Origin: a virus
Virus record (IMG/VR): IMGVR_UViG_3300025872_000108
Span: 1 to 41,053 of that record
Length of the DNA stretch: 41,053 bases
Reading direction: 5' to 3' (one strand)
Within the stretch, counting starts at the first letter, position 1; each line of letters begins with the position of its first letter. Under the pieces are notes generated by a model. That model did not search any database, was not told the origin of the DNA, and saw only the letters and a program-made list of their open reading frames with translations. A program made the translations under genes and the position numbers. Positions 4,256-24,051 of the stretch are shown here, piece by piece.

Positions 4256-4256
4256 T

Positions 4257-4319: not shown

Positions 4320-4337
4320 TTGGGTAACGTTGGGAGC

Positions 4338-4526
4338 ATGAGCAAGCCAGTAAAGACTTCAGCCAATAAAATCAAGCCTTCCAAAGAACCCCGTGTGAGT
4401 TGCCGCGTTTCCCGTCAGTTGATGGAGCGGCTGGAAAAAATCGCGGTCCGCAACGGAATTGACGTTTCGGACGTGGTGCGAATGAGCCTCAACCGCGTGC
4501 TGCCGGAATACGAAAAAGCCGCCTGA
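4338..4526 (+). CDS. Ribbon-helix-helix transcriptional regulator (rightward side of the switch)
   Basis: 62 aa from the ATG at 4338. The GTG at 4314 in the same frame lies inside the operator palindrome and is unlikely to be used. After a basic N-terminal arm (KTSANKIKPSKEPR) come the strand RVSCRVS, helix RQLMERLEKIAV, a GID turn and helix DVVRMSLNRVL, an RHH dimer unit. It is a paralogue of the minus-strand RHH protein across the control region, so the two resemble a CI/Cro-like pair built from RHH rather than HTH folds. As first gene of the rightward early operon it is the likely early regulator. GGGAG lies only three bases from the ATG, too close for a normal ribosome site. Confidence 0.75.
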   Translation: MSKPVKTSANKIKPSKEPRVSCRVSRQLMERLEKIAVRNGIDVSDVVRMSLNRVLPEYEKAA

Positions 4527-4530
4527 ATTT

Positions 4531-4677
4531 ATGAACCAAGAAACGAAATGGTTTAACCAGCCGACGCGCGAGGAACTGGCGGCGGCGAACACCAAGTTGA
4601 TTGGCTGGCTGGTCGGCGCGCTGATCGTGGCCGCCGGCGGCTGGATCGCGTTCGGCGTGGTGGTGGCGAAATTCTGA
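4531..4677 (+). CDS. 48-aa single-span membrane protein
   Basis: Starts 4 bp after the RHH stop. Residues about 1-22 are polar (starting MNQETKWFNQPTREEL) and residues 24-46 form one transmembrane helix (LIGWLVGALIVAAGGWIAF). It ends TGA-CC-ATG into the methyltransferase gene, a coupling pattern seen repeatedly in this operon. No family is recognised. Early-expressed one-span proteins in temperate phages are often exclusion factors or lysis modulators, but nothing here distinguishes these. Confidence 0.55.
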   Translation: MNQETKWFNQPTREELAAANTKLIGWLVGALIVAAGGWIAFGVVVAKF

Positions 4678-4679
4678 CC

Positions 4680-5114
4680 ATGAACACCAAGGTTCATTTT
4701 TCCAGCAAAAGCGAAGAGTGGGCGACTCCACAAGAGTTTTTCAACGCGCAAAATAATGTGTGGCTTTTCAACCTGGACGTGTGCGCCACAGATAAGAACG
4801 CCAAGTGCAAACGCTTTTACACTAAGCAGGACAACGCTTTAGAAAAAAATTGGGGGGGGGAGGGCGCGCGGTGCTGGATGAATCCGCCCTACGGGCGGGT
4901 TATCGGGGATTGGATGCGGAAAGCCTTCGAGGAAGCCGGCAACGGCGCGCTGGTGGTTTGCTTAGTGCCGGCCCGGACAGACACGGCTTGGTGGCACGAC
5001 TACGCCGCCAAGGGAGAAGTTACTTTTGTTCGCGGAAGGTTGAAGTTCAACGGCCACAAAAACAGCGCGCCGTTTCCTTCTGCAATCGTCGTTTTCAAGC
5101 CACGCAATAATTGA
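4680..5114 (+). CDS. Phage DNA N6-adenine methyltransferase (Dam_phage family)
   Basis: 144 aa. It should transfer a methyl group from S-adenosylmethionine to adenine N6 in phage DNA, probably against host restriction. Features seen: N-terminal WATPQEFF (about residues 15-22), FNLDVCA, then the catalytic NPPYG (68-72), all diagnostic of the phage N6-adenine methyltransferase family; the length is near the family's usual 150-170. The coding sequence holds A7, TT and a run of nine G (4852-4860) at codons 58-61, ahead of the catalytic motif. A change of one G would truncate the enzyme, so expression may be phase-variable; the present frame is intact. No ribosome site is obvious; translation is probably coupled to the gene ending at 4677. 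Confidence 0.85.
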   Translation: MNTKVHFSSKSEEWATPQEFFNAQNNVWLFNLDVCATDKNAKCKRFYTKQDNALEKNWGGEGARCWMNPPYGRVIGDWMRKAFEEAGNGALVVCLVPARTDTAWWHDYAAKGEVTFVRGRLKFNGHKNSAPFPSAIVVFKPRNN

Positions 5115-7310: not shown

Positions 7311-7592
7311 ATGAGCGAAGAACTTTTCAGCAGCAAGAGTGTGGCCGGTGATTCGCCGCGGTTGCGGTGGATCAAGGCGCACGAAATCAAGATCCAGGAA
7401 GTGCCGAACGTGATCGCCGGCGATGATTGCCCCGAGACGGGCGATCCGATGTATCCGTTTTATGTGTGGATCTACGCGGACAGTTACCCGGATGCCATGC
7501 CGTATTTTCGCGCCACGGGGTACACGTTGGACGAGGCGCTGGCCAATCTGGCGCTGAAACGCCGGTGGTTACTTTGGAATCAGGAACAATGA
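7311..7592 (+). CDS. Hypothetical early protein, 93 aa
   Basis: Begins 10 bp after the attC-like site. It is an alpha/beta-looking acidic protein: IKAHEIKIQEVPNVIAG, then PFYVWIYADSYPD, then a C-terminal helix (TLDEALANLALKRRW). The pattern of a short sheet followed by a helix containing EALANL recurs in phage hypothetical proteins, but no function is known to me. The ATG of the replication gene overlaps its stop (ATGA at 7589-7592), so the two are translationally coupled. Confidence 0.55.
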   Translation: MSEELFSSKSVAGDSPRLRWIKAHEIKIQEVPNVIAGDDCPETGDPMYPFYVWIYADSYPDAMPYFRATGYTLDEALANLALKRRWLLWNQEQ

Positions 7593-8428
7593 ACGATTTG
7601 CATTTCATCTTTTACAAGGCCAAGGACATGATCGTGGACACCCAGGACATGGACCGGGACACGGAACTGGCACACCGCCGGTTGTGTGACTTCATTTGGG
7701 CAATGGAACGGCCGCCCAAGAATGACAACGAGATTTTACGCCAGATCACCCGCACGCCGGAATCCCTTTGGGGCAAGGTGAAGCTGGGACTGACGGAAAA
7801 GGGGTGGTTTAGTGCCGGCGCTTATCTGGTCCATCGGGGGGTGATCCAATCGCTCAACGATTCGGCTGCGAAATACGCCGAGAACTACAACCGCACCGCA
7901 TTGGCGGGCAAGCGCCCGCATTTGACCCCCGCGACCGACCCGATCACCGGCATAACTACCTGGACGGTAGCGACCCCGGTGACGAAGTCCGTCACGGAAG
8001 CCGTCACGCAACCCGTTACGGCTGGTCAATCAGAACGACAGTCAGAATCACAACCACACTCCGAACCGTCTAATCCGCCTAGAAGCATGAAAGAGGGGGA
8101 TGCAAGGGGGAGGAACGGCCAGCCGGCGCGGGCGGGGTATCTGACGTTGGAAGGACTGAACCGCGTGGCCGGCGCGGTGCTGGAAAGCAACTGGTATTGG
8201 GATAACTGCAAGGTGACGCCGGACATGTTCACGCGCAGCAGTTTGGTGAGCGTGCTACGGCCCTACGCCGGGCGCGTGCCCGAGCAGCATGTTCTGGCGG
8301 TGTTCCATGAGGCGATCAAGACGGCGCACGCGCGCTGTGTGGATGCCGTGGGCCGCGGGAGCGTGGGCAAGCCGGGCGCGCTGGCGGTGACGATCTTGCG
8401 CGAATTGCTGGATAAATCGGTGCAATGA
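7589..8428 (+). CDS. Phage replication protein, DUF1376-like (candidate origin-binding initiator)
   Basis: 279 aa from the ATG at 7589; the longer ORF from 7427 is out-of-frame reading of the previous gene. Residues about 1-105 (LHFIFYKAKDMIVDTQDMD, LAHRRLCDFIWAMERPP, then WGKVKLGLTEKGWF) match the DUF1376 / replisome-organiser N-terminal fold, a winged helix found in phage initiators. Residues about 130-145 are a VT-repeat, followed by a disordered Ser/Gln/Glu-rich linker to about 180, then a helical C-terminus (YAGRVPEQHVLAVFHEAI) that may contact the host helicase or its loader. No polymerase or primase is encoded in the window, so this protein is expected to recruit host replication factors. 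The repeats in the linker DNA resemble iterons. Confidence 0.7.
   Translation: MNDLHFIFYKAKDMIVDTQDMDRDTELAHRRLCDFIWAMERPPKNDNEILRQITRTPESLWGKVKLGLTEKGWFSAGAYLVHRGVIQSLNDSAAKYAENYNRTALAGKRPHLTPATDPITGITTWTVATPVTKSVTEAVTQPVTAGQSERQSESQPHSEPSNPPRSMKEGDARGRNGQPARAGYLTLEGLNRVAGAVLESNWYWDNCKVTPDMFTRSSLVSVLRPYAGRVPEQHVLAVFHEAIKTAHARCVDAVGRGSVGKPGALAVTILRELLDKSVQ
7976..8023 (+). repeat. Four 12-bp iteron-like direct repeats inside the replication gene
   Basis: CCGGTGACGAAG, TCCGTCACGGAA, GCCGTCACGCAA and CCCGTTACGGCT lie end to end (7976-8023), sharing core CCGTNACG; a fifth weak unit may precede at 7964. They encode the PVTK/SVTE/AVTQ/PVTA repeat. AT-richer DNA follows (about 8025-8095). Phage lambda has its origin iterons inside its O initiator gene, so an origin here is plausible. 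The repeats could alternatively be merely a coding repeat. Confidence 0.5.
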
Positions 8429-8640
8429 ACATCACCCCATACCACGACGAGCCGGGGCGGTATCTGGTGGACAGCCGGACGCCGGGCGAACCGCCGTATC
8501 TGGTGGACGTGAATGAGAACGGCGGGCAAGGGGCGTGCAGTTGCCAGATCGTCCATTGCCGGCACACCAGCGGGTGCGTTCACTTGGCGGCGGTGAAGGA
8601 GAAACTGGACACGGATGGACACGGATGGACACAGATATGA
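8425..8640 (+). CDS. Small SWIM-type zinc-finger protein
   Basis: 71 aa, start overlapping the replication gene's stop (ATGA). A beta-rich N-terminus (GRYLVDSRTP, PYLVDVN) precedes C38-x-C40 and C51-x-H53, with C45 and H47 between; CxC...CxH is the SWIM zinc-finger pattern. SWIM domains bind DNA or proteins and occur in phage proteins of similar size. The last ten codons (DTDGHGWTQI) are encoded by three tandem 10-bp GGACACGGAT repeats, an apparent insertion that now supplies the C-terminus and overlaps the next start. Confidence 0.65.
   Translation: MNITPYHDEPGRYLVDSRTPGEPPYLVDVNENGGQGACSCQIVHCRHTSGCVHLAAVKEKLDTDGHGWTQI
8607..8636 (+). repeat. Three tandem 10-bp GGACACGGAT repeats
   Basis: Two perfect units and a third with one change (GGACACAGAT), ending directly at an ATG (8637). 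Related to the element at 6310-6339. The 10-bp period equals one DNA turn. Here it encodes the tail of the SWIM protein. Confidence 0.7.
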
Positions 8641-8942
8641 ACTGCGAAAAATGTGATCAACCAATGGTGTGGCTGGCCGGCGCGCTGGTGTGCGCCAACC
8701 AGAATTGTACGGCAAATCACCCGACGACGGCCAGCGGAACTACCATACTCACGTTTCCGCCAGGTCGCAGGTCGTATTCCTACGAAGAGGCTTGCGCGGT
8801 AGCCAAGGAATGGATGCGGGAGAATTACGGTCCAATGGCGCGGTTGAATCGAGAAGGGAAAGACCGTTACTGTGAAAAACTTGGCTTGCTGGTGGATTTC
8901 CTTTGGACGTTGCACCCGCCGGACAACCCACAAACCCATTAA
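8637..8942 (+). CDS. Zinc-ribbon protein, unknown function
   Basis: 101 aa. The N-terminus holds C3-x2-C6 and C19-x4-C24 (CEKC ... CANQNC), a standard zinc ribbon of about 22 residues. After a Thr-rich link, residues 50-95 are helical (SYEEACAVAKEWMRENYG, then KDRYCEKLGLLVDFLWTL). The start ATG follows the 10-bp repeats and overlaps the upstream stop (ATGA). Function unknown; the arrangement suggests a small nucleic-acid-binding or protein-adaptor factor in the early operon. Confidence 0.55.
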   Translation: MNCEKCDQPMVWLAGALVCANQNCTANHPTTASGTTILTFPPGRRSYSYEEACAVAKEWMRENYGPMARLNREGKDRYCEKLGLLVDFLWTLHPPDNPQTH

Positions 8943-11647: not shown

Positions 11648-13771
11648 ATGACCACGACCGAACAAAGCACACAAGGAAAGCTGCCCTTGCCGCAACGGCT
11701 GGTGGCGGCCGGACAAATGTTGATCACGGGCGAACTGCCGCAGCCGGTGGAACAGCCGGCCCCGTCACGCGCGGCGCTGGTGAAGGAATGGACGGAGCGG
11801 GTTAAGGGCGGCAAGGAATTTTGGAAACCGATTTTTGACAAGATCCGGGAGGAAATGGAATTTGCGGCCGGCAACCAGTGGGGCGACGAGGAATTGAGCG
11901 GGGATGATGGCAAGTACCAGGCGAACATTGTCCAACGGCACTTGGCGCAGAAGGAAGCCAGCCTTTACGCCAAGAATCCTAAAGCAATCGCGCGCAAGCG
12001 CCAGCGGTTGGAGTTCAAGATTTGGGACGGGGACGTGCAAAAGTTGCAACAGGCGCAAGCGGCGGTCCAGCAAAGCATGGCCATGTTGCAGCAGGCGCAA
12101 GCGGCGAACCCGGGCGTGGACGTGCGCGCGGCGGTGCCGCCCCCGCCGGCGGAAGCGCTGGCGTTGGTGGCGGACTACGAGAACGGGATAAAGGTGCGCG
12201 CGGCGCTGGATCGGGTGGCCGTGACCCTGGAACTGGTTTATGAGGACCAGCTAAAGGCGCAGATGCCGGATTTCAAAACCAGCATGAAAAAGCTGGTCCT
12301 GACCGGTTTAACGTGCCGGGTAGGTTGGGTGAAGGCGGGATATTACCGGGAAACGGACGATTATCCCCAGGCGACGGCGCAAAAACATGGGTTGGTGGAC
12401 CAGCTAAAGGCGTTATCCGAGCGCGCCGGCGAATTAGCCGCGCAGCAGGACCCGGATTCATCGCTGGTGGCGGAGTTGGAGATTATGGCCAATGCGCTGA
12501 AATGCCAGATGGAATGTGGCGCGGGCGCGATCACGCGGGAAGGGTTGGTGTTCAACTTCCCGAAGACCACGAGCATAATTGTGGACCCGAATTGCACCGA
12601 GTTGCGCGGGCTGGTGGGGGCGCGCTGGTTGGCCGAGGAATTTATGCTGACCGCGGCGCAGGTGTTCGAGGCGTACGGCGTGCGGCTGAATGGGAGCGGG
12701 GCGGTCGTGTATGCCGAGGACGGGAGCGAACCTAATCCGATCGAAGCGGCGCAGCAGAAAACCGCCGGGCCGGAAAAGCGCTTTTGCGTGTGGGAGATCT
12801 ATGACCACGCGACGCAGCTAAAGCTGGTGGTATGCGATGGCTTCCCGGACTTCCTGGAAGAACCGGGCGCGCCGATGCCGGCGCTAAAAGATTTCTGGCC
12901 GTACCAACCCTTGGTGTTCAACCGCGTGGTGGTGGAAAAGAACCTGCCGGAGAAAGATGTAACCATTTACCCGACCAGCGATGTGCGGTTGCTGATGCCG
13001 TTGCAGAAGGAAATCAACCGGAGTCGGGACTGCCTACGGTTACACCGTATCCATGCGTTGCCCCGGTATGCGGTATCGGCGGCGGCGGCGCTATCAGATG
13101 CCGACGCCACGGCGTTGGCCAGCGGCACGCCCGGGGTGGCGATCAAGCTAAACGGCATGGCGCCCGGCGAGGATGTGGCGAAGCTGATCCAACCGATCCC
13201 CACGATCCCGCCCAGCCCGGCCGTTTACGACACGCAGCACGTTATGACGGACGTTTTGACCGTGGTCGGGAGCGCGGAAGCTAACCTGGGCCCGGTCCAG
13301 CCGCGCGTGACGGCCACGCAAAGCAGCATTGCCGAGGGCAGCCGGATTAGTTCGGTATCCTCGAACGTGGACGACTTGGACGACTTGCTTACCTGGATGG
13401 CGCGCGCCGGCGGGGAGATCTTGCTGGGAAACATGAGCCGGGAAACGGTAACCGAGATTGCCGGCCCGGGCGCGGAGTGGCCGGAATTTAACCGGGAACA
13501 GATCGCCAAGAGTTTGTTCCTCGAGATCCAGGCGAGCAGCAGCGGCCGGCCCAACCGCAACATGGAAGTGCAAAACTTCCAGATCCTTGCCCCGCTATTG
13601 CAGCAGATCCCCGGCATTAAACCGGACTTCATGGCGCGCGAAGGGTTGAAGCGCCTGGATGATCGCCTCGAGTTGGCCGACGCCTACGATCCGGCGCTGG
13701 CGGCCCAGGCGCAAATGCAAGCCACTTTGCCGGCTGGCGGTCCGCCGGCGGCAGGAAACCAAACACCATAA
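11648..13771 (+). CDS. Portal protein (P22-like size)
   Basis: 707 aa, near the 725 aa of P22 portal. It forms the dodecameric ring through which DNA enters. The N-terminal part (AAGNQWGDEE, YQANIVQRHLAQKEASLYAK) is the standard start of podoviral portals; an Ala/Gln-rich helix follows (about 130-160), then the wing and stem region (QPLVFNRVVVEKN, LMPLQKEINRSRD) and the C-terminal crown (about 600-690) with a Gln/Ala/Pro tail. The ATG comes three bases after the terL stop. The frame is intact; no protease or MuF domain is fused. Confidence 0.9.
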   Translation: MTTTEQSTQGKLPLPQRLVAAGQMLITGELPQPVEQPAPSRAALVKEWTERVKGGKEFWKPIFDKIREEMEFAAGNQWGDEELSGDDGKYQANIVQRHLAQKEASLYAKNPKAIARKRQRLEFKIWDGDVQKLQQAQAAVQQSMAMLQQAQAANPGVDVRAAVPPPPAEALALVADYENGIKVRAALDRVAVTLELVYEDQLKAQMPDFKTSMKKLVLTGLTCRVGWVKAGYYRETDDYPQATAQKHGLVDQLKALSERAGELAAQQDPDSSLVAELEIMANALKCQMECGAGAITREGLVFNFPKTTSIIVDPNCTELRGLVGARWLAEEFMLTAAQVFEAYGVRLNGSGAVVYAEDGSEPNPIEAAQQKTAGPEKRFCVWEIYDHATQLKLVVCDGFPDFLEEPGAPMPALKDFWPYQPLVFNRVVVEKNLPEKDVTIYPTSDVRLLMPLQKEINRSRDCLRLHRIHALPRYAVSAAAALSDADATALASGTPGVAIKLNGMAPGEDVAKLIQPIPTIPPSPAVYDTQHVMTDVLTVVGSAEANLGPVQPRVTATQSSIAEGSRISSVSSNVDDLDDLLTWMARAGGEILLGNMSRETVTEIAGPGAEWPEFNREQIAKSLFLEIQASSSGRPNRNMEVQNFQILAPLLQQIPGIKPDFMAREGLKRLDDRLELADAYDPALAAQAQMQATLPAGGPPAAGNQTP

Positions 13772-13805
13772 AAACAAACCATTGACATAAAGGAGGGACG
13801 GAGTT

Positions 13806-14867
13806 ATGACAGAAACAGAAAGTGCGCTACCGGCCGAATCGCAACCGGCCAATCCCACCGGCGGGACTGCACCCGCAGAAGCCGGATCAGGCGCTACGCC
13901 GCAATCGCCCGCGGCAAATCCCACGGACGCTAACGCAGACGTTACGGACCCGTCCACCGTAGAAGGCGCTAAACCGCGCTCGCTTTCGGAAGTCATGGAC
14001 GCCGCGTTGAACGGCGAAACCAACCCCGAAGGCAAGCCCGCAGAGGAATCGCCTACCAATGCAAACGCGGAAGCAGGAAAGGCCGAGTCAGACGGCGGGC
14101 CCAAGCAGGATGATCCGGGCAAACCGAAAGAGGAGGCGGCAGAGAATGTTCCTTTCCATAAGCATCCGGCATGGCAGCGGCAAATTGCCAAGAGCAAGAC
14201 GCTGGCCGGCCAGGTGGAGCAGTTGACGCCTAAGGCGCAAGTGGTGGATGAACTGATCAGCTACACAGGTGGCGAGCAGGGATTTCAAAACGCGCGCGAG
14301 TTGATGCGGACGTTTGCGACCGATCCGGCAGCGGCAGTGCCAATGCTGGAAACATTGTTGGACGACGCCCGCGGGCGTTCCGGTTTGAAGCTGGTAAGCC
14401 AGGATTTGACCCAAAAGGTTGAAACCGGCGAATTGAGCGAACCGGACGCGATCGAGATTGAGAAGGCGCGGGCCGCCACGAGAGCGGCCCAGCAGCGGCA
14501 ATCCGAGCAACAACAGCGGCAACAGCAGGAACAGGCGCAAGCCAGCCGGCAACAGATTGTGACGGCGCTGGATGCCTGGGAAAAGAATGTTTCGCGCGAT
14601 CCTGATTACGCGGGAATCAAGGACTTGGTGGAAGCCAAGGCCGCGTTGCTATTGCAACAGAAGATTGCCGAAGCCAAACGGCCGTTGAACTCACACGAAA
14701 TGGTGGGAGTCGCCCAAGCCAGTTTGGACGCGGTACGGCAGCAGATCGGGAAAATGCTGCCGCGCCCGGGGGCAATCCGGCCGGGGCCGAAGCCGGGATC
14801 ATCCGTAACCGCCAGCCAGCGGCCGCGGAATTTAGACGAGGCTATGGACGCCGCGCTAACCGGGTAG
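13806..14867 (+). CDS. Capsid scaffolding protein
   Basis: 353 aa, directly before the capsid gene, with a strong ribosome site (AAAGGAGGG, ten bases before ATG). The N-terminal 110 residues are disordered (Pro/Ala/Asn/Thr/Glu). After FHKHPAWQRQIAKSKTL come a helical core and a Gln-rich coiled coil (about 215-245), then a proline-rich tail. This acidic-disordered plus coiled-coil make-up is typical of scaffolds that fill the procapsid. The short motif LSEVMDAALNGE (about 59-70) recurs at the very C-terminus as LDEAMDAALTG, probably a capsid-binding or self-association peptide. No protease motif is visible. Confidence 0.8.
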   Translation: MTETESALPAESQPANPTGGTAPAEAGSGATPQSPAANPTDANADVTDPSTVEGAKPRSLSEVMDAALNGETNPEGKPAEESPTNANAEAGKAESDGGPKQDDPGKPKEEAAENVPFHKHPAWQRQIAKSKTLAGQVEQLTPKAQVVDELISYTGGEQGFQNARELMRTFATDPAAAVPMLETLLDDARGRSGLKLVSQDLTQKVETGELSEPDAIEIEKARAATRAAQQRQSEQQQRQQQEQAQASRQQIVTALDAWEKNVSRDPDYAGIKDLVEAKAALLLQQKIAEAKRPLNSHEMVGVAQASLDAVRQQIGKMLPRPGAIRPGPKPGSSVTASQRPRNLDEAMDAALTG

Positions 14868-14895: not shown

Positions 14896-15945
14896 ATGGC
14901 GATCAGTTTCAGTAACTTCGATAATTTGGTGAACAGCGCCCTTGATTTCTACGTCAAGGAAGATCCGCTGATTCAGAACATCCAGGAAAAACCCCTTTTG
15001 GCCGCCCTGAAAGAGCGCCAGAAGACGTTCCCCGGCGGTCAGGGCTATATCAGCCTGCCCGTGCAAGGGGCGGTGGCGGCGGACACGGCCGGCTTCTTCG
15101 CCGGGTACAGCCACACCGATCAGGTTGGGTTTGTGCACCCGGACAACATCCTCCGGGCAAAATACCCCTGGCGGGAAGTCCACGCGGGGATTGTGCTGGA
15201 TTACACCGAGCTCAAGCAGCGCGGCGTGTCCATCGTGGACGGCAAAGCGCCGGCGGCGCCGACCTCGGGCGAAATCCAGATCGTTAAGGATTACGTCAAG
15301 GCGGTGCTGACGAACGACTTTGGCGAATCCTTCGCGCGTTCGATGAACTCCATGTGCTGGAAGGACGGCAGCCAGGACGCCAAGCAAATGCCCGGCGTGT
15401 TGGCCGTGCTGGACGACGACGCGACCAGCGGCACGATCGGCAGCCTGGACCGCGCGACGTATAGCTGGTGGCGGCATCGTACCCTTGTGGGCGCGAACGC
15501 GATCACGCCCAGCGCCGCCAACTCCACGCTGGTCCGCACGTTGAACGATGAAATGGTTCAACTGATGCGGTACGGCGGCCGCCCGGACCTCGCCTTTGCC
15601 GGTTCGGACTTCCTCTCCGCCTTGCGCGAGGAACTGTTCGGCAAGATGCAGTTCTCCCAGGCGGGCTTGTCCAAGAAGGACGAAACCCAAGTCGGCGTGG
15701 CCGATGTGGCGCTCAACAACCTCGTGTTCAAGTACGATCCGACCTTGGATCAGTTGGGCAAGGGCAAGCGGGCGTACATCCTGGACAGCCGGCATATCAC
15801 CCTCCAACCGATGGACGGGCAGGACATGGTGGTGCAAAAGCCGACGCGGCCGTACGATCAGTACGTCTTGCTAAAGGCCGTCACTTGGACCGGCGCGCTC
15901 ACGTTCGATCAACTGAACTGCCACGGCGTTTACGAGATCAAGTAA
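14896..15945 (+). CDS. Major capsid protein (HK97-fold type)
   Basis: 349 aa from the ATG at 14896; the TTG at 14872 would add eight polar residues without need. It forms the icosahedral shell. The sequence shows the usual order: an N-arm (FSNFDNLVNSALDFYVKED), a spine and P-domain region (DYTELKQRGVSI, SGEIQIVKDYVKAVLTNDFG), an A-domain (PDLAFAGSDFLSALREELFG), and a C-terminal strand pair ending DQLNCHGVYEI, typical of podoviral capsids where the last strand contains N-G-V-Y. Position right after the scaffold supports the call. A GC-rich hairpin follows the stop. Confidence 0.88.
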   Translation: MAISFSNFDNLVNSALDFYVKEDPLIQNIQEKPLLAALKERQKTFPGGQGYISLPVQGAVAADTAGFFAGYSHTDQVGFVHPDNILRAKYPWREVHAGIVLDYTELKQRGVSIVDGKAPAAPTSGEIQIVKDYVKAVLTNDFGESFARSMNSMCWKDGSQDAKQMPGVLAVLDDDATSGTIGSLDRATYSWWRHRTLVGANAITPSAANSTLVRTLNDEMVQLMRYGGRPDLAFAGSDFLSALREELFGKMQFSQAGLSKKDETQVGVADVALNNLVFKYDPTLDQLGKGKRAYILDSRHITLQPMDGQDMVVQKPTRPYDQYVLLKAVTWTGALTFDQLNCHGVYEIK

Positions 15946-16016: not shown

Positions 16017-16559
16017 GTGAAAACCATGTTCAAATACGTCTTCGCCCTTGTGGCGCTTCTCGTGGCTACGACCGCCTTTGCCGGCGGCTTCAAAAGCCAG
16101 TCGTTCCTCAACACCACGGCCAGCAGCTACCCGTTGTTGCTGACCAATACGGGGGTGTTCACCTACGGGAGCAGCTACGACTACACGAACAGCGCCGGCA
16201 CGCGCGTTACCAACAGTGCGATCTTTACCGATTGCGCGAATTGGCCCGCGGCGGATGGTGCCGCCAACGCCAACGCCAACGTAACGGTGCGCCTGGTAGG
16301 TACAGCCGCTACTCTGACCAACTCAATCACCTTTGTCTTGGCCAAGGTGGGGGATGGGGTAAACGCCAGTACCATAGCCGGGGACAAGTTCACGTTTGTA
16401 GTGACGCCCAACGGCACTACGGAAGTGGTGGCATCCACCAACGTCCCGGCGGCGCTCTTAACCGGCGCGGGCAAGGTGAGGTTGCTATCCGTGACCAGTG
16501 GGGCGGCCAACACGAACTGCTTGATCAAGGCGGTTTCGTTTAACGGTTTCCCTCCGTAA
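16017..16559 (+). CDS. Exported protein with Sec signal peptide, next to the capsid gene
   Basis: 180 aa from GTG at 16017, supported by AAAGG ending seven bases upstream; ATG at 16026 is an alternative. Residues 1-21 form a clear signal peptide: KTMFKYVFALVALLVATTAFA with an AFA-GG cleavage site. The mature part is Thr/Asn/Ala/Val-rich and beta-sheet-like (TNSAIFTDCANWP, NVTVRLVG, FTFVVTPNG), with two cysteines. A gene here normally encodes a capsid decoration or head-stability protein, but virion proteins assemble in the cytoplasm and should not carry a signal peptide. Either the hydrophobic N-terminus has another use, or the product is exported during infection. Confidence 0.65.
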   Translation: MKTMFKYVFALVALLVATTAFAGGFKSQSFLNTTASSYPLLLTNTGVFTYGSSYDYTNSAGTRVTNSAIFTDCANWPAADGAANANANVTVRLVGTAATLTNSITFVLAKVGDGVNASTIAGDKFTFVVTPNGTTEVVASTNVPAALLTGAGKVRLLSVTSGAANTNCLIKAVSFNGFPP

Positions 16560-16662
16560 TTGGTGGGTGTTTGGGGTGTCGGCGGGGTGGCGTGATGGCC
16601 GCCGCCCTGCCGGCGCTTCATAACTTCAACCAGTAAAACCGCCATCGTTGAAACCAAACACC

Positions 16663-17019
16663 ATGAAGACCATAAACTGCAGGATCAAGCTACACGAGTT
16701 TGCCGACATTTCCGGCTTGGGGATCACCCCGGCGGAAGCGGTGGTACTCCAAACCCTCCACGGCGCGAACGCCGGCGGGGCTGGGAAAGTGATTATGAAC
16801 CCCGTCGCGGCCGGCGAAGTCAAGCGGAGCGACGTGGAAGAAGTGAACCGGCTGATGGGGAAATATCCGGTCCGCGGTAAAAGCGAGCAGCCGATTGTCA
16901 AGGAACTGTTCCCCGGGGCGCTGCCGAAGCTGCCGGCGTCGTTTGCGGAGATCGGCATTGAAAACGTGGCCGAACCGGCGAAGGGAAAGAAAACCCCGGC
17001 CGAAACGCCTACGGAATAA
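16663..17019 (+). CDS. Hypothetical head-region protein
   Basis: 118 aa from the ATG at 16663; the TTG at 16648 lacks support. The N-terminus (KTINCRIKLHEFADISGLG) is followed by TPAEAVVLQTLHGANAGG and SDVEEVNRLMGKY; the C-terminus is Lys/Pro/Glu-rich and disordered. It lies between the capsid and head-tail adaptor genes, where small head-completion or decoration proteins are usual. I do not recognise the family. Confidence 0.55.
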   Translation: MKTINCRIKLHEFADISGLGITPAEAVVLQTLHGANAGGAGKVIMNPVAAGEVKRSDVEEVNRLMGKYPVRGKSEQPIVKELFPGALPKLPASFAEIGIENVAEPAKGKKTPAETPTE

Positions 17020-17026
17020 GTGATTT

Positions 17027-17758
17027 ATGCGCGGCAAAACCCTGGCCAACCTCGTGACGCTGTTAAAAGCGGAGATTGGCCAGGTTTTGTCTTCCGACGC
17101 CACGGGTAATGACGATGTGCTTAAAGCCAAGCTGGCGGCCCAGCAGGAGTTTTTAGGCGCAAAATACCGGTGGGACTTTCTGACGGTTGAAGCGGATGTA
17201 ACGCTGGTGGCGGGGACGCGGCTTTACAGTTACCCCACCCGGACTGATTCCGGCAATGCCACCGTGGAAAATCCCTGCCGCGACCACGAGGTAAAGGTAG
17301 AAACCTTATCGGGCGGGCGGTGGAGTTGTGTGGAAGCGGGCATTTCCGGGGAACAATACAACATTGTGGACAGTGAGGCCGGCACGCGGCTGGACCCGGT
17401 AACGCGCTGGCGGATGCTCTACACCGGCGGGGCGCTCAAGATCGAGGTTTGGCCGATCCCGGCAACGGCCGGCACGTTGCGGCTGACCGGCCAGCGGACC
17501 ATTAACCGCATTACCGCCAATTCTGACGTGGCGGACCTGGACGACCAGCTAATTGTCTATTTTGCCGCGGCGGAGATCCTGGCCAACTTAGGCCAGAACG
17601 ATGCCCAGGCGAAGCTCGCCAAAGCGCAGGACCGGCTAAACACCTTGCGCGCGGCCCAACCGCAACCGATCGAACGGAAGACGTTTGTGATTGGCGGCGG
17701 CGCCACTATCCGCGGCGGCGGGCCGAAACCAACGATTGCAGTTAACTACACACCATAG
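17027..17758 (+). CDS. Head-tail adaptor (connector) protein
   Basis: 243 aa. The N-terminal helices (TLANLVTLLKAEIGQVLSSD, AKLAAQQEFLGAKYRWDFL), a middle beta section (VEADVTLVAGTRLYSYP), and C-terminal DQLIVYFAAAEILANLGQND then AKAQDRLNTLR match the pattern of podoviral connector/adaptor proteins (P22 gp4 / T7 gp11-like), which sit below the portal. In such proteins the YFAAAEILA helix packs against neighbouring subunits. Position after the head genes and before tail genes supports this. Confidence 0.65.
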   Translation: MRGKTLANLVTLLKAEIGQVLSSDATGNDDVLKAKLAAQQEFLGAKYRWDFLTVEADVTLVAGTRLYSYPTRTDSGNATVENPCRDHEVKVETLSGGRWSCVEAGISGEQYNIVDSEAGTRLDPVTRWRMLYTGGALKIEVWPIPATAGTLRLTGQRTINRITANSDVADLDDQLIVYFAAAEILANLGQNDAQAKLAKAQDRLNTLRAAQPQPIERKTFVIGGGATIRGGGPKPTIAVNYTP

Positions 17759-17765
17759 GCAGATT

Positions 17766-18476
17766 ATGACTAGATCCATTAAATCCAGCGGCGCGGTATT
17801 AAGCCTGATCCTTTCGGACGTGGGCGCGCGGCCCAACCTTGTGCGCCTCGAAGGTTTTATGAATGGCAGCGCGGCCAGCATGTATTACCTTCACCTTTAT
17901 GCGGCCACGGCGCTTTCAGCCCTGTCCAATGGGGCATCCCCGCTTTATTCGGTCCAGGTGGACGGCCAGCGCGGGTTCACTTTCGATTATAGCCAGAAAC
18001 CTTTGATCACCGCCAACCTGGCCAGCGCCCTGCCGACCAACGGCAACCTGTTGCTGGTGGTTTCCACGACCGAAGCCACTTTGACCAAGGCGACGACCGA
18101 AACCGTGGACGTGCGGGTGGAGATCGAATCGGCCGCGTTCCCGTTGCCGGCGAGCGCCACGGTGGAAGGGGATTTGACGACGGCTGTTGTCGGTCGCGGG
18201 CACGATGGGGCGGCCAATCTGTTGCGGGTGGAAGGAAAGAACAACAACGGAGTGGACGTTTATTTGCAGATCCATGACCAAACCGACCTTGGATTAGAGG
18301 ACGGCCAAACCCCGGTAGTTACGCAACTGGTGGCAGCCGGCGCGACGTTTGATCTTAGCTTTGGCCGGGACGGGTTGCGGTTTGCGACCGGCATCCAGGT
18401 AATTTTCAGCAGCACTGCCGCCACTTTAACCAGCCTGGGCGGGACGGATTACACGGTGCGTTTGACCAGGAACTAA
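17766..18476 (+). CDS. Structural protein with tandem duplicated beta domain
   Basis: 236 aa from the ATG at 17766; the longer ORF is a shadow. Residues about 24-120 and 151-236 are two copies of the same domain: NLVRLEGFMNGSAAS ... VDGQRGFTFDY ... VVSTTEATLTKAT ... VDVRVEI corresponds to NLLRVEGKNNNGVD ... VAAGATFDLSF ... IFSSTAATLTSLG ... YTVRLTRN. Both are all-beta. The layout resembles virion decoration or fibre-base proteins, though the family is not known to me. No signal peptide, unlike the next three genes. Confidence 0.6.
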   Translation: MTRSIKSSGAVLSLILSDVGARPNLVRLEGFMNGSAASMYYLHLYAATALSALSNGASPLYSVQVDGQRGFTFDYSQKPLITANLASALPTNGNLLLVVSTTEATLTKATTETVDVRVEIESAAFPLPASATVEGDLTTAVVGRGHDGAANLLRVEGKNNNGVDVYLQIHDQTDLGLEDGQTPVVTQLVAAGATFDLSFGRDGLRFATGIQVIFSSTAATLTSLGGTDYTVRLTRN

Positions 18477-18477
18477 C

Positions 18478-19224
18478 ATGAAAAAGCTAATTTTACTGCT
18501 GGGGTTGCAATGTTGCTTGGTTTGGGCGGGCCCTAACTCCGGGCCATACCCAACGGCAATAAACTACACCACCGTCACCAACATTGCCACGGCGGTAATG
18601 ACGGCCGCACCAATCACCCTCACCCCCACCGTCACGACCAACTTGGTGGACTATGGGACAAACACGGTTTATGTCACTGGTAGTGATGATATGAACTGTA
18701 TTGGCGCTGGGGCGTGGGCTGGGGCGTATGTTTATCAAAATGGCAATTACACCAATGCAACTACCGGAAATTATTTCCATTATGATACGCCTTATTGGTA
18801 TTTTTACGATGTAAATTGTTGGGGCGAGGACGTTCAACAGAGTAATGAAACCAATGTGTTGTGGTATGCGACATTTGGGCAAATAAATAGCACGTTCACT
18901 GACATGGGGACAGTCACGGTAGGGACTAATTCCTATGCCACTAACGGCGTCGTAGCTTGGAACTTCACCAGTGGCAGATTGCAGACTGTTTCCGCGACGA
19001 ACCTCAATAATCTCTTGGTGATTCTTGGCTCGGCACAATCTGGATATGCTTCCACGTTACGAGTGGATGCCAACAGTAGTGTGAATGTCATCATCACCAA
19101 CTCGCTCGCTTGGCTGAACGGCAGCGGAGTGACGAACACGGTGACAACAAACACCTACATTTCCGCGCAGGCGTGGTCAACGAATCACGCGGATACAGCG
19201 GTGGCAATCAAATCGAAACAATGA
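18478..19224 (+). CDS. Exported Asn/Thr-rich protein with signal peptide
   Basis: 248 aa. The signal peptide MKKLILLLGLQCCLVWA has a VWA-GP cleavage site. The mature chain is unusually rich in Asn, Thr, Tyr and Trp (YVYQNGNYTNATTGNYF, then YWYFYDVNCWGED) and probably forms beta structure; a C-terminal stretch (LLVILGSAQSGYASTLRV) is more hydrophobic. Codon use and base composition differ from neighbours: 18781-18840 contains 24 G/C out of 60. No family is recognised. It opens a three-gene set (this, the LamG gene and the 20000 gene) joined by ATGA overlaps, all with signal peptides, so they form a separately acquired export unit. Confidence 0.6.
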   Translation: MKKLILLLGLQCCLVWAGPNSGPYPTAINYTTVTNIATAVMTAAPITLTPTVTTNLVDYGTNTVYVTGSDDMNCIGAGAWAGAYVYQNGNYTNATTGNYFHYDTPYWYFYDVNCWGEDVQQSNETNVLWYATFGQINSTFTDMGTVTVGTNSYATNGVVAWNFTSGRLQTVSATNLNNLLVILGSAQSGYASTLRVDANSSVNVIITNSLAWLNGSGVTNTVTTNTYISAQAWSTNHADTAVAIKSKQ

Positions 19225-20003
19225 AACGCCTAATCGCATTATCTTGTGCGTTGGTTGTAGCGATTGCGGCTTACGCTAAGTCGTTGAGTGACCCTGTGTT
19301 TGTGGCTTCTCTTGGGGGAGATATTACGGGATGTGTGTTCTACGCCCCGATGGAGTCTGCTACGGTTTCGATTGGCAATAATCTGACCGTAAATGGCTCG
19401 GTGACTTTTACCGCTGGCAAGCACGGTAATGCTGCAACCTTTGACGGGAATGACAGTTATTTGACCGCATTGACTGATGCCAATTTCGCCGCCGCCATCA
19501 ACGCGCAAACAGTAGAGTTTTGGGTGCGGTATGATTGGCCTCCGGTGAACAGATATTTCTTTGTGGCAAATGAGGATGGGACTTGGTTGCCGGGAATCCT
19601 TACCGACTATGGAACGCCAACGCTTGTTGCGTTGATAGCCTACAACGATAGCGTCCAATATTCAACTTATGGGTATCCGTTGCCAGCATCTCCAACCAAC
19701 GGAACTTGGCATCATCTAGCCTTCACCTTTAACAGTTTTGGGCTGAATGGAAACCGTCAGCAGAAGGTTTACTTGGATGGAGTCTTGGCCGCCGATATTC
19801 CGGGTGATGACGTTTATCTAAATGCCAGCAGTTCTCCTATTCGAGCTGACTTTTCAACTTTCGTGATAGGTAAAGAGAAACTAGACGGTAACGAATACTT
19901 CACCGGACAGATTGACGAACTAGCCGTCTATAATCGGGAACTTACAGCAGGGGAAATACAAGCCATTTATCAAAGTGGCGGAAACATCAAGCGTAGATTA
20001 TGA
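19221..20003 (+). CDS. Exported LamG-type (concanavalin A-like) lectin-domain protein
   Basis: 260 aa from the ATG at 19221, which overlaps the previous stop. The signal peptide MKRLIALSCALVVAIAAYA ends AYA-KS. Residues about 40-255 are a complete LamG/Pentraxin-like jelly roll: YAPMESATVSIGNNLTVNGS, GKHGNAATFDGNDSYL, VEFWVRYDWPP, GTWHHLAFTFN, QQKVYLDGV, FVIGKEKL and finally GQIDELAVYNRELTAGEIQAI, the family hallmark. Such domains bind glycans. In the host periplasm or outside it could bind cell-surface sugar, for example to mask a receptor; if it stays on the virion it could be a receptor-binding decoration. Both are inference. Confidence 0.78.
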   Translation: MKRLIALSCALVVAIAAYAKSLSDPVFVASLGGDITGCVFYAPMESATVSIGNNLTVNGSVTFTAGKHGNAATFDGNDSYLTALTDANFAAAINAQTVEFWVRYDWPPVNRYFFVANEDGTWLPGILTDYGTPTLVALIAYNDSVQYSTYGYPLPASPTNGTWHHLAFTFNSFGLNGNRQQKVYLDGVLAADIPGDDVYLNASSSPIRADFSTFVIGKEKLDGNEYFTGQIDELAVYNRELTAGEIQAIYQSGGNIKRRL

Positions 20004-20473
20004 AAACCACACTACTTATCTTGGCACTCACCGCCAGCATTGCGTTGGCCGATACGACGAACATTCAGCGTGTCGCAACTAAAACTATTCCCGCCGCGCA
20101 ACTGGATGCGGTGCTGGATGGCGCAAGACAGATGGGCATTGAAACTGGTGAGTTTGTGACCACCACGAACTTGAGCCGTATCTTCATTGCGCCGAGCGGC
20201 ACGAACTTCACCTGTTCGATTGCGATTAAGCCGACTATCAACGAACAAACCGTTACCAGCACCAACGGTGTCTCTGTTACAACGCGCACGGTAACAACTC
20301 ATCCGGTTGCGCCGCTTACGTTAAGCAGACAGCAGATGCAGGGGTTGTTTAATGCGGGCGTTGGTGTTGCGGGTGACATTCAGCCGCGAGTTACCATCTT
20401 CAATTTCCGCAGCATCACCGTTGCGCCGCAGACGAACAGCACGGATTGGAAGATAACTATTCCAATGAAGTAA
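20000..20473 (+). CDS. Exported protein with signal peptide, unknown
   Basis: 157 aa, ATG overlapping the LamG gene's stop. Signal peptide MKTTLLILALTASIALA, cleavage ALA-DT. The mature part is Thr/Ser-rich (TVTSTNGVSVTTRTVTTHP) with GARQMGIETGEFVTTTNLSR and a C-terminal beta-rich end (VTIFNFRSITVAPQTN). It belongs with the two upstream exported proteins in composition and coupling. Four bases after its stop the lysis-like genes begin with a return to normal codon use, marking the right edge of the block. Confidence 0.55.
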   Translation: MKTTLLILALTASIALADTTNIQRVATKTIPAAQLDAVLDGARQMGIETGEFVTTTNLSRIFIAPSGTNFTCSIAIKPTINEQTVTSTNGVSVTTRTVTTHPVAPLTLSRQQMQGLFNAGVGVAGDIQPRVTIFNFRSITVAPQTNSTDWKITIPMK

Positions 20474-20476
20474 GTT

Positions 20477-20692
20477 ATGAGCCCCGAACAGGAAGCCAAA
20501 CTTAACGAGATTCACCGGGCTCTGGTGGGCGAACCCGCGTTCAAGCGCGAGGGGATCATCGAGAAGGTGGAGCGGCATGAAGTTTGGATCTCCAACGCCA
20601 AGGTGCGGATTGCGGGCATCATGGGCGGGGCGGCGGTGCTGATGTTTCTGGTGATGAAGGCGGAAAAACTAATCGAATGGGTGATAAAATGA
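20477..20692 (+). CDS. Holin-like / XhlA-type membrane protein
   Basis: 71 aa. An N-terminal amphipathic, charged helical region (EAKLNEIHRALVGEPAFKRE, EKVERHEVWISNAKVRI) precedes one transmembrane segment (IMGGAAVLMFLVM, about 48-60) and a short basic end. The NEIHRALVGE then HE-x-WI pattern matches small phage hemolysin/holin-like proteins I know from other tailed phages. A role in timing lysis is likely but not proven. The stop overlaps the next start (ATGA). Confidence 0.55.
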   Translation: MSPEQEAKLNEIHRALVGEPAFKREGIIEKVERHEVWISNAKVRIAGIMGGAAVLMFLVMKAEKLIEWVIK

Positions 20693-20868
20693 ACGACATA
20701 CCCGGAATCAATTTGCTGCCCGAGAAATGGCGCGGGCCGGTGACGTTGGCCGTGCTGCTATCGCCGTATATCACGCGCGCGTATCACGCCATCGCTACGG
20801 GCGGCGGCTTGCGCGGCATCATTAACGCCATCTGGTTCGGCACAAACACCCCCAAGGACAAACAATGA
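20689..20868 (+). CDS. 59-aa membrane-associated protein of the lysis region
   Basis: Starts at the ATG at 20689, within the previous stop, and its stop overlaps the next start (ATGA). A hydrophobic segment (VTLAVLLSPYITRAYHAIA, about 17-35) and a second weaker one (GLRGIINAIWFG, 40-51) suggest membrane association. No family is recognised. It may be a second holin-type or antiholin component given the neighbours. Confidence 0.45.
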   Translation: MNDIPGINLLPEKWRGPVTLAVLLSPYITRAYHAIATGGGLRGIINAIWFGTNTPKDKQ

Positions 20869-21311
20869 AAACCTATTCCGATCAACCCCGCTGGACGCTA
20901 TTCGATACGCTTTTTGCCTTGGTGTTCGCCGCGATTCTGGCCATGACCATCCTGGCATCCGGTTGCAAGACGCCCACGCTGGCCGCCGGCGGCAGCTACG
21001 CGCAGGCCGGGCAGAAACCGGACCTGGCGCTGTATTCTGCGGACGCCGCTTATGCCAGCGCCTACGCCACGCTGGACTTCGCGTTCAAATTTGAGCGGGA
21101 TAACCGGGCGATGCTCTGGAAAATCTCGCCGCAAATAAAGCATAGCCTGGATGCCGTCCGCCCCGTGGCCGTGCAGGTGAATCTGCGCTGGGCCGCGGCG
21201 CGCAAGGCGTATCTGTTGCATCCCGTGCCGGCGAACCTGACCACGCTGGAATCAATACTGGCCGATGGTCAACGACTGGCCGCCACCGCAACCGCAGCAT
21301 TACCCAAGTGA
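20865..21311 (+). CDS. Membrane-anchored or lipoprotein of the lysis region (spanin-like position)
   Basis: 148 aa. After 13 polar residues, a hydrophobic segment (TLFALVFAAILAMTILASG, about 15-33) ends at a cysteine (ASGC, C34), an acceptable but not ideal lipobox. The mature chain is a long helical Ala-rich region (DAAYASAYATLDFAFKFERD, RPVAVQVNLRWAAARKAY). If lipidated it would be an outer-membrane-facing protein of spanin type, which fits the position after holin-like genes; if not, it is an inner-membrane protein. No endolysin motif. Confidence 0.5.
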   Translation: MKTYSDQPRWTLFDTLFALVFAAILAMTILASGCKTPTLAAGGSYAQAGQKPDLALYSADAAYASAYATLDFAFKFERDNRAMLWKISPQIKHSLDAVRPVAVQVNLRWAAARKAYLLHPVPANLTTLESILADGQRLAATATAALPK

Positions 21312-21314
21312 TTT

Positions 21315-21542
21315 ATGGACCCGCTAACCATCATCGCTCTCATTCAGGCCGGCATCAAAGCCGCGCCGGATGCCGCCAAGTTCATCAAAGCCACGAAGGA
21401 TTATATCGTGGACCTATTCGCCGGCGGGGTGATTGACATTGATACCCAGGACAAGCTGCACGCCTATTGCGATGCGGCCATGAACGCGGCCATTGCCGGC
21501 GAAGTGCCGCCGCACTGGCAAAATGAACCCGACCCCGAATAG
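21315..21542 (+). CDS. 75-aa hypothetical protein, helical
   Basis: A helical protein: DPLTIIALIQAGIKAAPDAAKF, then IKATKDYIVDLFAGGVIDI, then QDKLHAYCDAAMNAAIAG. Moderately hydrophobic N-terminal third, acidic C-terminus. Its end overlaps the small TM gene below (ATG at 21523 in another frame). No family is recognised; its position suggests lysis or virion morphogenesis. Confidence 0.5.
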   Translation: MDPLTIIALIQAGIKAAPDAAKFIKATKDYIVDLFAGGVIDIDTQDKLHAYCDAAMNAAIAGEVPPHWQNEPDPE

Positions 21543-21795: not shown

Positions 21796-24051
21796 ATGTC
21801 TTACCTATCCATCAACGATTTTCGGGCGGGATTGGACGCGCGCAAGTACAAGCTGGCGCTGCCGGCGGGCAGTTTGTTGGAGTTGGACAACGCGCATATC
21901 ACGGCCGGCGGGGAGATCGAGAAGCGCAAGGCGTTTGTGCGGTATGGCCTTAGCGGCGGCGATGTGCGCGCTACCATCATGTCGTCGTCCACCATTACGA
22001 TCTCCGGCACCGTATCGTACTACTACAAGATCAGCCAAACGCCAACCTCGCCGGTAGGGTATTTCCTGGCCACGGACGTAGGCAAGCGGGTGACTTCTTC
22101 TGATATTCTTCATTCCGGCATCTTGGTGGCCGTGTTGGACCAAGACCCGATTGCTACGACCTATTACCGGACCGGGGTGATCTGGTCAGACGATCCATAT
22201 TGGGCCACGCTCACGCCGGACGCGGCCATGACGATCTACGTCATGCCGGCTTTTTTCGGTTTGGAAGAAACTGACGCCGGCTTGACGGTGTTCGGGAGCG
22301 CCAGCGCCCCGGCGACCCTGCCGACGCAGTTGACCTATAAGCAACTGACCAACCCGATTGATAGCACTTGGAAAATGTACCGGGTGGACGTGACGGCCAA
22401 TTTTGGCGGGAAAGCCTGGGTGGCCGCGCGGTTTTTCGATGCCAACAATTCTACCTTCCCGGACACGTTCGAAGACGTGGTTTTTGTCTTTTACGACGGG
22501 GTAGCGCTGGGGCAGTGGTATCAAGGGTACTTGATTACGGCCACCTCGTTCATTAACCGGATGTATGCCTTGCTGGACGGGGACAACGGCGGATTGGCCG
22601 GGTTTCATGTGACCAACAAGGTAGCGGCGACCAGCTTTGACGTTTACAGTGATTACGGTATGCAGTTTACCGTTACGGCGGGCGTGGTAAGCGGGACGAC
22701 CGACGACTTTACCGCGACGTATTCCGAAGCGCCGATCTCGCCCACCCCAAGTTATGGCGCCGTGGCGCAATTTAAGATCACCGGTGGACAGGGCGGGACG
22801 GCGATTGCGGTAAGCTCATTTTCGATTGCGTCTCCTACCACGATCACCACAGGCGTTAATCACGGATGGAATACGGGCGAATGGGTGACTTTGAGCGGGT
22901 TTAACACTGCCAATAACGCGCTCAACGGAACTTTTGAAATCACGGTTACGGGATTAAATACATTTACCGTTGCAGTAAACATGACCGGGAAGACCTCCCA
23001 AACCGCCAGCGCCATGCGGTCCGCGGGCATCCGGCGGCTGCAGGTGACGACGCCGGCGGGTAACACGGTGGATTTGTTTTCCTATACCGGCACGCCGTTG
23101 GTAATGCCCGCCCGGAGCGGGGACATGACGGCGGATGTAAACAACTTTGCCGGGGCGATTGCGGCGGCGATCAATACCACGCCCAGCGGGTACACCGCGA
23201 TCAATAGCGGCGCGCAAATCTCCATCCACACCAACGAAAACGCCACGTCCAACAACTCCGCCTATCTGACGATCACGGGCGTAAACGATTTTTGCACGGA
23301 CGCGGCGAGCTTCCAACTGACGGCAGCCAACAACAGCGACACTTGCGACCAGGTGAATGTGACGGTCGGCGGGGTGACGACCAACCTAATGAACGCCAGC
23401 GCGACGGGCGCCACGCCGGATGTTTTTGCGGCGGCGATTGCGGCGCAGATCCAAGCCAAAGCCGCCACCACGGGGTACACCGCGGCTTATGTGGTGCTGG
23501 TGGATACTACCACCATCCCAAACCAATACACCTATAACGTTGTAATCAGCAAGCGGGTGCGGACCAGCGACCCGGCCACCGATCCCTTGCCTACGGGTTA
23601 CAGCGTGAATATGACCGGCGGGAGCGCGATTACCGCCGGCGGCTATGTCGGCAACGGCTATTTTCCAACCGCCTTGCACGCGACGATTGCGGACAAAACT
23701 TACAGCGCGGGCGTGATCTATAACACTTACAGCGCGGATGCCACGCCAGTTATCAGCGGCGGGACTACTCCTTACACGTTGTCATCTTCGGCATTAAATA
23801 CTGCCAACATGACTTGGAAATCTACAAATTCCTCCGGCTCCTTTGTTCCCTGGGGGAAAAAAGAGTCCGCTAGTGGGGCGGACGGCCCGAGCGCTTCATT
23901 ATCCTATGCGAACGGCAAGTTTACGGTGCTGATCACCATAGACACGTTCTTGTATGTCAAAGGACTAATGCAGATCACGGCCACCTTTAAGGATTCCTCG
24001 GCCGGGGTAGGTAAGTATGTGACTGTAACCGGAAATCTCTTTTTCATCTAA
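21796..24051 (+). CDS. Tail stabilisation / tail tubular protein, N-terminal component (P22 gp10 / T7 gp12-like)
   Basis: 751 aa. The N-terminus (INDFRAGLDARKYKLALPAG, then LLELDNAHITAGGEIEKRKA) is the hallmark of podoviral tail-tube/stabilisation proteins that plug the portal channel. Then come beta-rich domains. Around residues 335-400 is an FCCH-like repeat (PTTITTGVNHGWNTGEWVTL, then NGTFEITVTGLNTFTV) common in phage tail proteins. Two tandem domains follow (about 415-480 and 515-590), each with a NFAGAIAAAINTTPSGYTA-like helix between strands. The C-terminus is a beta region. The next gene supplies the propeller part usual for this protein, so the function may be split over two chains. 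Confidence 0.7.
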   Translation: MSYLSINDFRAGLDARKYKLALPAGSLLELDNAHITAGGEIEKRKAFVRYGLSGGDVRATIMSSSTITISGTVSYYYKISQTPTSPVGYFLATDVGKRVTSSDILHSGILVAVLDQDPIATTYYRTGVIWSDDPYWATLTPDAAMTIYVMPAFFGLEETDAGLTVFGSASAPATLPTQLTYKQLTNPIDSTWKMYRVDVTANFGGKAWVAARFFDANNSTFPDTFEDVVFVFYDGVALGQWYQGYLITATSFINRMYALLDGDNGGLAGFHVTNKVAATSFDVYSDYGMQFTVTAGVVSGTTDDFTATYSEAPISPTPSYGAVAQFKITGGQGGTAIAVSSFSIASPTTITTGVNHGWNTGEWVTLSGFNTANNALNGTFEITVTGLNTFTVAVNMTGKTSQTASAMRSAGIRRLQVTTPAGNTVDLFSYTGTPLVMPARSGDMTADVNNFAGAIAAAINTTPSGYTAINSGAQISIHTNENATSNNSAYLTITGVNDFCTDAASFQLTAANNSDTCDQVNVTVGGVTTNLMNASATGATPDVFAAAIAAQIQAKAATTGYTAAYVVLVDTTTIPNQYTYNVVISKRVRTSDPATDPLPTGYSVNMTGGSAITAGGYVGNGYFPTALHATIADKTYSAGVIYNTYSADATPVISGGTTPYTLSSSALNTANMTWKSTNSSGSFVPWGKKESASGADGPSASLSYANGKFTVLITIDTFLYVKGLMQITATFKDSSAGVGKYVTVTGNLFFI

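Follow-up and report, generated by a model that had tools for sequence, protein, structure and literature searches.

Predicted export signals on putative virion surface proteins in a clade of podovirus-like phages

In the textbook view, tailed phages are assembled entirely in the cytoplasm. Exported proteins encoded near tail genes are already known: Llp of T5, a lipoprotein encoded beside the receptor-binding gene, jams FhuA and blocks re-adsorption (PMC9586334), and Lom of λ, which bears a signal peptide (SP), is encoded between the tail spike and tail fibre genes (PMC12309495). Here we analyze a viral stretch of 41,053 nucleotides (IMG/VR record IMGVR_UViG_3300025872_000108, positions 1 to 41,053; hereafter the window), in which four proteins with SPs, P0001 to P0004, are encoded amid head and tail genes. 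An earlier note on this DNA had read them as exported late proteins that might coat the dying cell or its debris, and knew of no described system of this form. The export signals stand, and are kept across a whole clade of relatives, but the stated lack of any described system does not, given that Llp, its Cor relatives and Lom are exported proteins from tail regions. In open-access full texts, we found no description of SPs on the tail fibres, virion proteins or capsid decoration of tailed phages.

P0001 is encoded directly after the major capsid protein (MCP), a place that we call slot 1, while P0002 to P0004 lie between the head-tail adaptor and a nozzle-like protein, in slot 2. In our best reading, the slot-2 block consists of the phage's own fibre or spike genes and slot 1 holds a capsid-surface gene, all with SPs, because clade homologues contain repeats of tail fibres, domains of the beta-helix and GH28 types, matches to tail-spike and minor-tail PHROGs, and a shared post-cleavage motif. 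That the four proteins are virion surface proteins, exported late as Sec precursors and joined to the particles at lysis, is in our judgment an even call.

Signal peptides in two slots of one capsid clade

All four proteins begin with an n-h-c type SP followed by an AxA-type site, the features of Sec substrates; these calls were made with heuristic n-h-c rules written for this analysis. The earlier description of the locus was accurate. The four open reading frames (ORFs) and their cleavage sites are as listed in Table 1, both overlaps within slot 2 read ATGA (19221-19224 and 20000-20003), the GC content drops to 0.48 over 19-20 kb, from about 0.59 in the flanking sequence, and P0003 has a LamG domain (PF13385, E=2.5e-22) at residues 75-247. 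The neighbors encode TerL, the MCP, an SU10-like adaptor and the nozzle-like protein, so that the slot-2 genes sit among late-operon tail genes. Since the first and last 126 bases are identical (an exact terminal repeat, 2-127 = 40928-41053), the contig closes to a circle; it is a complete circular phage. The terminal repeat and the near-identical second contigs L002 and L003 rule out host DNA on the contig. An artefact or wrong start codons are ruled out as well, as SPs recur at the same slot in 26 distinct clade members.

Relatives were collected by protein scans of IMG/VR with the MCP, which returned, besides L002 and L003, many relatives with about 40-49% identity to it. After dereplication, 147 relatives were placed in an MCP tree, where the SP phages fall into a single clade of 28 (support 100), in agreement with earlier trees, and the clade MCPs are about 41-48% identical to that of the window. 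In most relatives the MCP, a small protein, the adaptor and the nozzle are contiguous with nothing else between them. In the clade subset, SP proteins fill both slots, and slot 2 is absent from most relatives. By a fixed rule, a slot-1 SP is present in 25 of the 27 assessable clade members and in 1/112 outside (Fisher p=4e-24), and one rule applied to all genes between MCP and nozzle finds SPs in 56/154 genes of the clade and 4/264 outside (p=4e-23), p-values that measure association and not independent origins, as the clade phages are not independent. The fixed rule misses two members, L164, where both the slot-1 and the slot-2 genes are lacking, and L142, although an SP can be seen by eye in its slot-1 protein. 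Upstream of the MCP in the same clade loci, only 5/149 genes have an SP. Among the members found after the pattern had been formulated, 10/11 have a slot-1 SP (among the ten, L140 is close to L045, which was known before); the exception is L164, with no slot-1 gene. The earlier note had named related phages without the SPs as an observation that would count against it; we find the SPs kept clade-wide and the outside relatives without the genes altogether.

The slot-1 family is specific to this clade, its profile matching 24/28 members and 0/119 phages outside. In some outside relatives (the RHph_N65, L057, L104 family), a protein of ~220-320 amino acids (aa) without a convincing SP lies right behind the MCP. 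This SP-less family occupies 24 loci outside the clade and none inside, and the two slot-1 families are mutually exclusive. Head decoration and cement proteins are encoded directly after the MCP, as is P0001, and the slot is kept in the clade. P0001 is therefore decoration-like by position, though no member of a decoration family. In L131, a second SP protein (7476-8711, 411 aa, VFA-QT) lies right behind the slot-1 protein, which suggests that slot 1 can also gain fibre-like proteins. L164 is nested in the SP clade and has the MCP, small protein, adaptor and nozzle contiguous (3767-5032), as though the whole export module could be lost at once.

Domains and motifs behind the cleavage sites

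From their domains and repeats, the slot-2 SP proteins of the clade, which are up to 1195 aa long, look like tail fibres or spikes. One of them (L113, 10212-12338) joins an SP, the motif GPYP, a GH28 beta-helix and LamG in one chain, and another (L188, 5322-7004) has a right-handed beta helix (Beta_helix). The slot-2 SP protein of L076 matches a tail-spike PHROG and that of L127 a minor-tail PHROG. Behind the SP, the L076 protein has a repeat (ATQAEVDAGLVKGKFVSPFTL) with weak matches only to T4-like Klebsiella phages, almost all annotated as tail-fibre (E about 0.07). Over 25 residues, this repeat shares 68% identity with L187, and the repeat of L120 does likewise; the bodies otherwise differ. 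The L042 SP protein has a domain in common with a 1359-aa ORF of the outside relative L021, which matches a minor-tail PHROG; this ORF lies just upstream of packaging genes, with its own N-terminus cut off. LamG occurs with an export signal in the window, L045, L085, L113, L120 and L151. A LamG domain suspected by eye in an SP-less slot-2 protein of L104 was dropped, with no Pfam match. In slot 2 of the window, the LamG of P0003 is the only fibre, beta-helix or glycan-binding module; P0003 also matches phrog_8510, a virion structural protein (E=1.5e-10).

In the 100,791 residues of the clade ORFs, the motif GPYP appears five times, always shortly after the predicted cleavage site in a slot-2 SP protein (window, L041, L045, L085 and L113); a sixth carrier is the later-found L191. 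In P0002 it spans residues 22-25 (18541-18552). The bodies behind it are otherwise unrelated. Proteins that dock to one common partner would be expected to share such a motif on variable bodies, and it suggests something like a docking tag. P7, which lacks an SP and adjoins the slot-2 SP genes, is the candidate for this partner; its profile matched 21/28 clade members and 0/119 outside. Most members of the slot-1 family keep an SFLN-type motif a short way past the cleavage site, and the mature N-terminus of P0001 bears SQSFLN (family of 16). The stretch PYSREFL, queried against phages, gave no match.

In L085, the homologue of the window LamG protein (12955-13755, MKLSRRQFVKTGALFLPMVATGQD) has an SRRxFLK-type motif before its hydrophobic core. 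This is a twin-arginine (Tat) type signal, MKLSRRQFVKTG, whereas the window homologue has a Sec-type one. Export itself, and not just a hydrophobic end, seems to be under selection, because this homologue has a Tat signal. Also encoded at this locus, immediately before the MCP gene, is a protein of 112 aa (7865-8203) whose N-terminus is Tat-like (MTSRRSFFRQLASGVLVAS).

AlphaFold2 models of P0001 and P7 (pLDDT 83 for each) are mostly beta, and for P0001 a jelly-roll-like beta sandwich is predicted. Their Foldseek matches include lectins, carbohydrate-binding modules, capsid jelly rolls and tail-fibre heads. The models fit surface proteins but decide nothing; for P7, Foldseek gave generic beta-sandwich proteins at low TM-scores and no specific fold. 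Homology between P0001 and P7 was looked for and not found, and 50,697 phage records contain no named relatives of P0001, P0002, P0004 or P7.

Gene order of the window

The order of genes is podovirus-like: a minus-strand integrase is followed by packaging and head genes, adaptor, nozzle-like protein, internal proteins and a giant polyvalent protein (Table 1). Two features had escaped the earlier note, the 126-bp terminal repeat and a fifth exported product, the lipoprotein at 20865-21311. The latter belongs to a holin/lipoprotein-like cassette (20477-21542) directly after the slot-2 SP genes; no recognisable endolysin was found among the window proteins searched. An exported endolysin was considered for P0001 to P0004 and rejected, as the four proteins have no lysozyme-type domain. 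Within the fibre/lysis cassette of three clade phages, proteins with response-regulator receiver domains (PF00072, E 5e-14 to 3e-19) are encoded in L085 (14580-15011), L144 (15606-16031 and 16556-17020) and L191 (16219-16653), and in a similar place L045 has a gene with a LuxR-type helix-turn-helix (13372-14046, PF00196).

Table 1. Coordinates of the genes considered here, in positions of the window
Feature	Position	Strand	Remarks
Small terminase	9213		
TerL	10043		
Portal-like	11648		
Scaffold-like	13806		
MCP	14896..15945	+	phrog_9953, E=2.8e-41; anchor for relative search
P0001, slot-1 exported protein	16017..16559	+	180 aa, GTG start; SP residues 1-22 (16017-16082), AFA-GG
Conserved 118-aa protein between MCP and adaptor	16663..17019	+	no SP; homologues in most relatives
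Head-tail adaptor, SU10-like	17027..17758	+	no SP; PF24175, E=5e-12; left border of slot 2
P7	17766..18476	+	236 aa, no SP; clade-specific, right before slot-2 SP genes
P0002, first slot-2 exported protein	18478..19224	+	248 aa; SP residues 1-17 (18478-18528), VWA-GP
P0003, second slot-2 exported protein	19221..20003	+	260 aa; SP residues 1-19, AYA-KS; LamG 19443-19961
P0004, third slot-2 exported protein	20000..20473	+	157 aa; SP residues 1-17, ALA-DT; no domain
Small protein with C-terminal membrane helix	20477..20692	+	holin-accessory-like (by eye); similar proteins in same place in L036, L085, L120
Small hydrophobic protein	20689..20868	+	conserved in L085 (76 aa); BLAST tag holinB
Lipoprotein	20865..21311	+	lipobox LASG-C; clade-conserved; spanin-like by position only
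Small conserved protein of lysis-like cassette	21315..21542	+	similar ORFs in clade loci
Nozzle / tail-stabilisation-like	21796..24051	+	right border of slot 2; homologous N-terminus right behind adaptor in most outside relatives

The giant polyvalent frame runs in frame across the circular junction (28419-41051 + 3-977) and comes to roughly 4,490 aa, about a third of the genome; a part of 4,211 aa runs off the right end of the window. It contains a Zeta_toxin domain (PF06414, E=5e-22) and resembles a DarB-like antirestriction protein (phrog_10089). As to the host, a genome scan with the MCP alignment gave only alphaproteobacterial loci, all outside the clade. Verrucomicrobiota as the host group of the clade is a mere guess, drawn from the style of the proteins.

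Competing readings and comparison with known systems

The reading of the four proteins as virion surface proteins builds on what the sequences show: the signal peptides, their clade-wide conservation, the slot position, the tail-type domains in relatives and the recurrent post-cleavage motif. Export in vivo, a decoration role for slot 1, docking on virions, its timing at lysis and the role of P7 are inferred. The reading can be extended, more tentatively and with slightly less than even confidence, to an assembly in two compartments, in which a DNA-filled core forms in the cytoplasm, receptor-binding and capsid-surface proteins collect in the periplasm through Sec or Tat, and the two meet only at lysis. 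Slot 1 would supply a decoration-like capsid-surface protein and slot 2 the receptor-binding or fibre-type proteins, including the one with a glycan-binding LamG. Made late as Sec precursors (Tat in one relative), they would reach the periplasm and be cleaved; in the meantime the cytoplasm would be the site where capsid, portal, adaptor and nozzle come together. Lysis would mix the compartments, and the cleaved proteins could then dock on finished particles through motifs near their new N-termini, GPYP on the first fibre and SFLN on the slot-1 protein. P7, lacking an SP, may be the receiving part, a cytoplasmic partner on the virion side. Joining after lysis is plausible, given that T4 tail fibres and P22 tailspikes attach in vitro to completed particles.

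Several observations weigh against this assignment. For P0002 and P0004, which show no recognisable fibre domain, position and motif are the only grounds of assignment. For P0001, Foldseek gave only generic beta-sandwich matches at low TM-scores and no specific fold, and no homology to the SP-less slot-1 family was detected (hhalign probability 0.1%). In addition, export is not universal in the clade: some members have large SP-less slot-2 proteins (L112, 488 aa; L121, 1248 aa), L142 is without a slot-2 SP, L153 without a clear slot-2 SP gene and L164 without both slots. Finally, a Q-P start after cleavage is common among exported bacterial proteins.

The same export signals would also serve proteins that never enter the virion. 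As periplasmic or secreted glycan binders or cleavers, they could act after lysis on the cell that made them and on its debris, by coating or stripping, and so hide receptors or release progeny, which widens the coating idea of the earlier note to depolymerases. The predicted cleavable Sec and Tat signals, the LamG, GH28 and beta-helix domains, the place of the genes directly upstream of the lysis-like cassette and the precedent of T5 Llp, which blocks FhuA, all agree with such a role. We consider it unlikely, if a serious contender, since the retention of GPYP behind the cleavage site of unrelated bodies suggests docking to a shared phage partner, and both the slot-1 family and P7, which are specific to phages, are inherited together with the capsid gene. 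Moreover, the window would be left with no recognised receptor-binding protein; outside slot 2, no other fibre or spike candidate was recognised among the window genes searched. GPYP also bears on whether the hydrophobic N-termini are cleaved at all, as it lies just behind the predicted sites. Uncleaved, they would act as anchors in the virion or the membrane, the precursors staying in the inner membrane, where particles would dock, with the segment retained. All segments are indeed N-terminal and hydrophobic with positive ends, and the cleavage sites are predictions. Yet AxA-type sites are kept in slot 1 throughout the clade though the SP sequences diverge, and Tat replaces Sec in one homologue, so that we give retained anchors very little credence. 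It is just as improbable, in our estimate, that the SP genes are recent host-derived cargo, acquired as auxiliary genes for secreted lectins and polysaccharide hydrolases, and contribute nothing to the particle. Such an origin would fit the lower GC at 19-20 kb and the bodies that vary among phages, and LamG and GH28 are common in bacterial secreted proteins. It fits poorly with two fixed slots over a clade as deep as the MCP identities indicate, with slot-1 and P7 families that are clade-specific, and with the recurrence of the pattern in the later-found members.

If the four proteins do join the virion, assembly would be split over two compartments and the adsorption machinery would be held apart from the cytoplasm. 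Intracellular particles would then be without receptor-binding proteins until release, and the surface proteins could gain disulphides or glycans that are not available in the cytoplasm. The sequence rule (an SP after the MCP, GPYP behind an SP) could help to spot such phages and their receptor-binding genes in metagenomes, where these are usually unannotated. Should the proteins instead stay free, they would form a new and larger class of late proteins that are exported and act on the envelope, beside Llp and Cor.

Like the four proteins, T5 Llp and Cor, known from superinfection exclusion and lytic conversion, are exported phage proteins, and the T5 gene adjoins the receptor-binding gene. 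Llp and Cor, however, are small lipoproteins acting on an outer-membrane transporter, whereas the proteins of the window have signal peptidase (SPase) I-type sites, are 157-260 aa long (up to 1195 aa in relatives) and, in the window or its relatives, carry glycan-binding or hydrolase and tail-fibre domains. None of the four is a small lipoprotein with an SPase II lipobox; only the product of 20865-21311 is a lipoprotein. λ Lom is likewise an SP-bearing product encoded amid tail genes, but it is a single outer-membrane beta-barrel expressed in lysogeny and unrelated to fibres or capsid decoration. The verrucophage P8625, an isolated tailed phage of Verrucomicrobia, the host group suspected for this clade, was compared for sequence style; unlike the clade, it is reported by its authors to have no signal peptide among its 52 proteins (PMC4642752). 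Cement and decoration genes, such as Pam1 cement gp6 and the RHph_N65/L057/L104 family, occupy the same slot after the MCP as the SP family, but have no convincing SP and no detectable homology to it. With podovirus tail spikes and fibres (Pam1 gp17 and PHROG families), the slot-2 proteins have in common the position among tail genes, beta-helix and fibre-repeat domains, and a domain shared with the minor tail protein of a relative. The Pam1 spike lacks such a signal for export, whereas in the clade a Sec or Tat signal is conserved; cleavable export signals on fibre and capsid-surface proteins are unusual for tailed phages.

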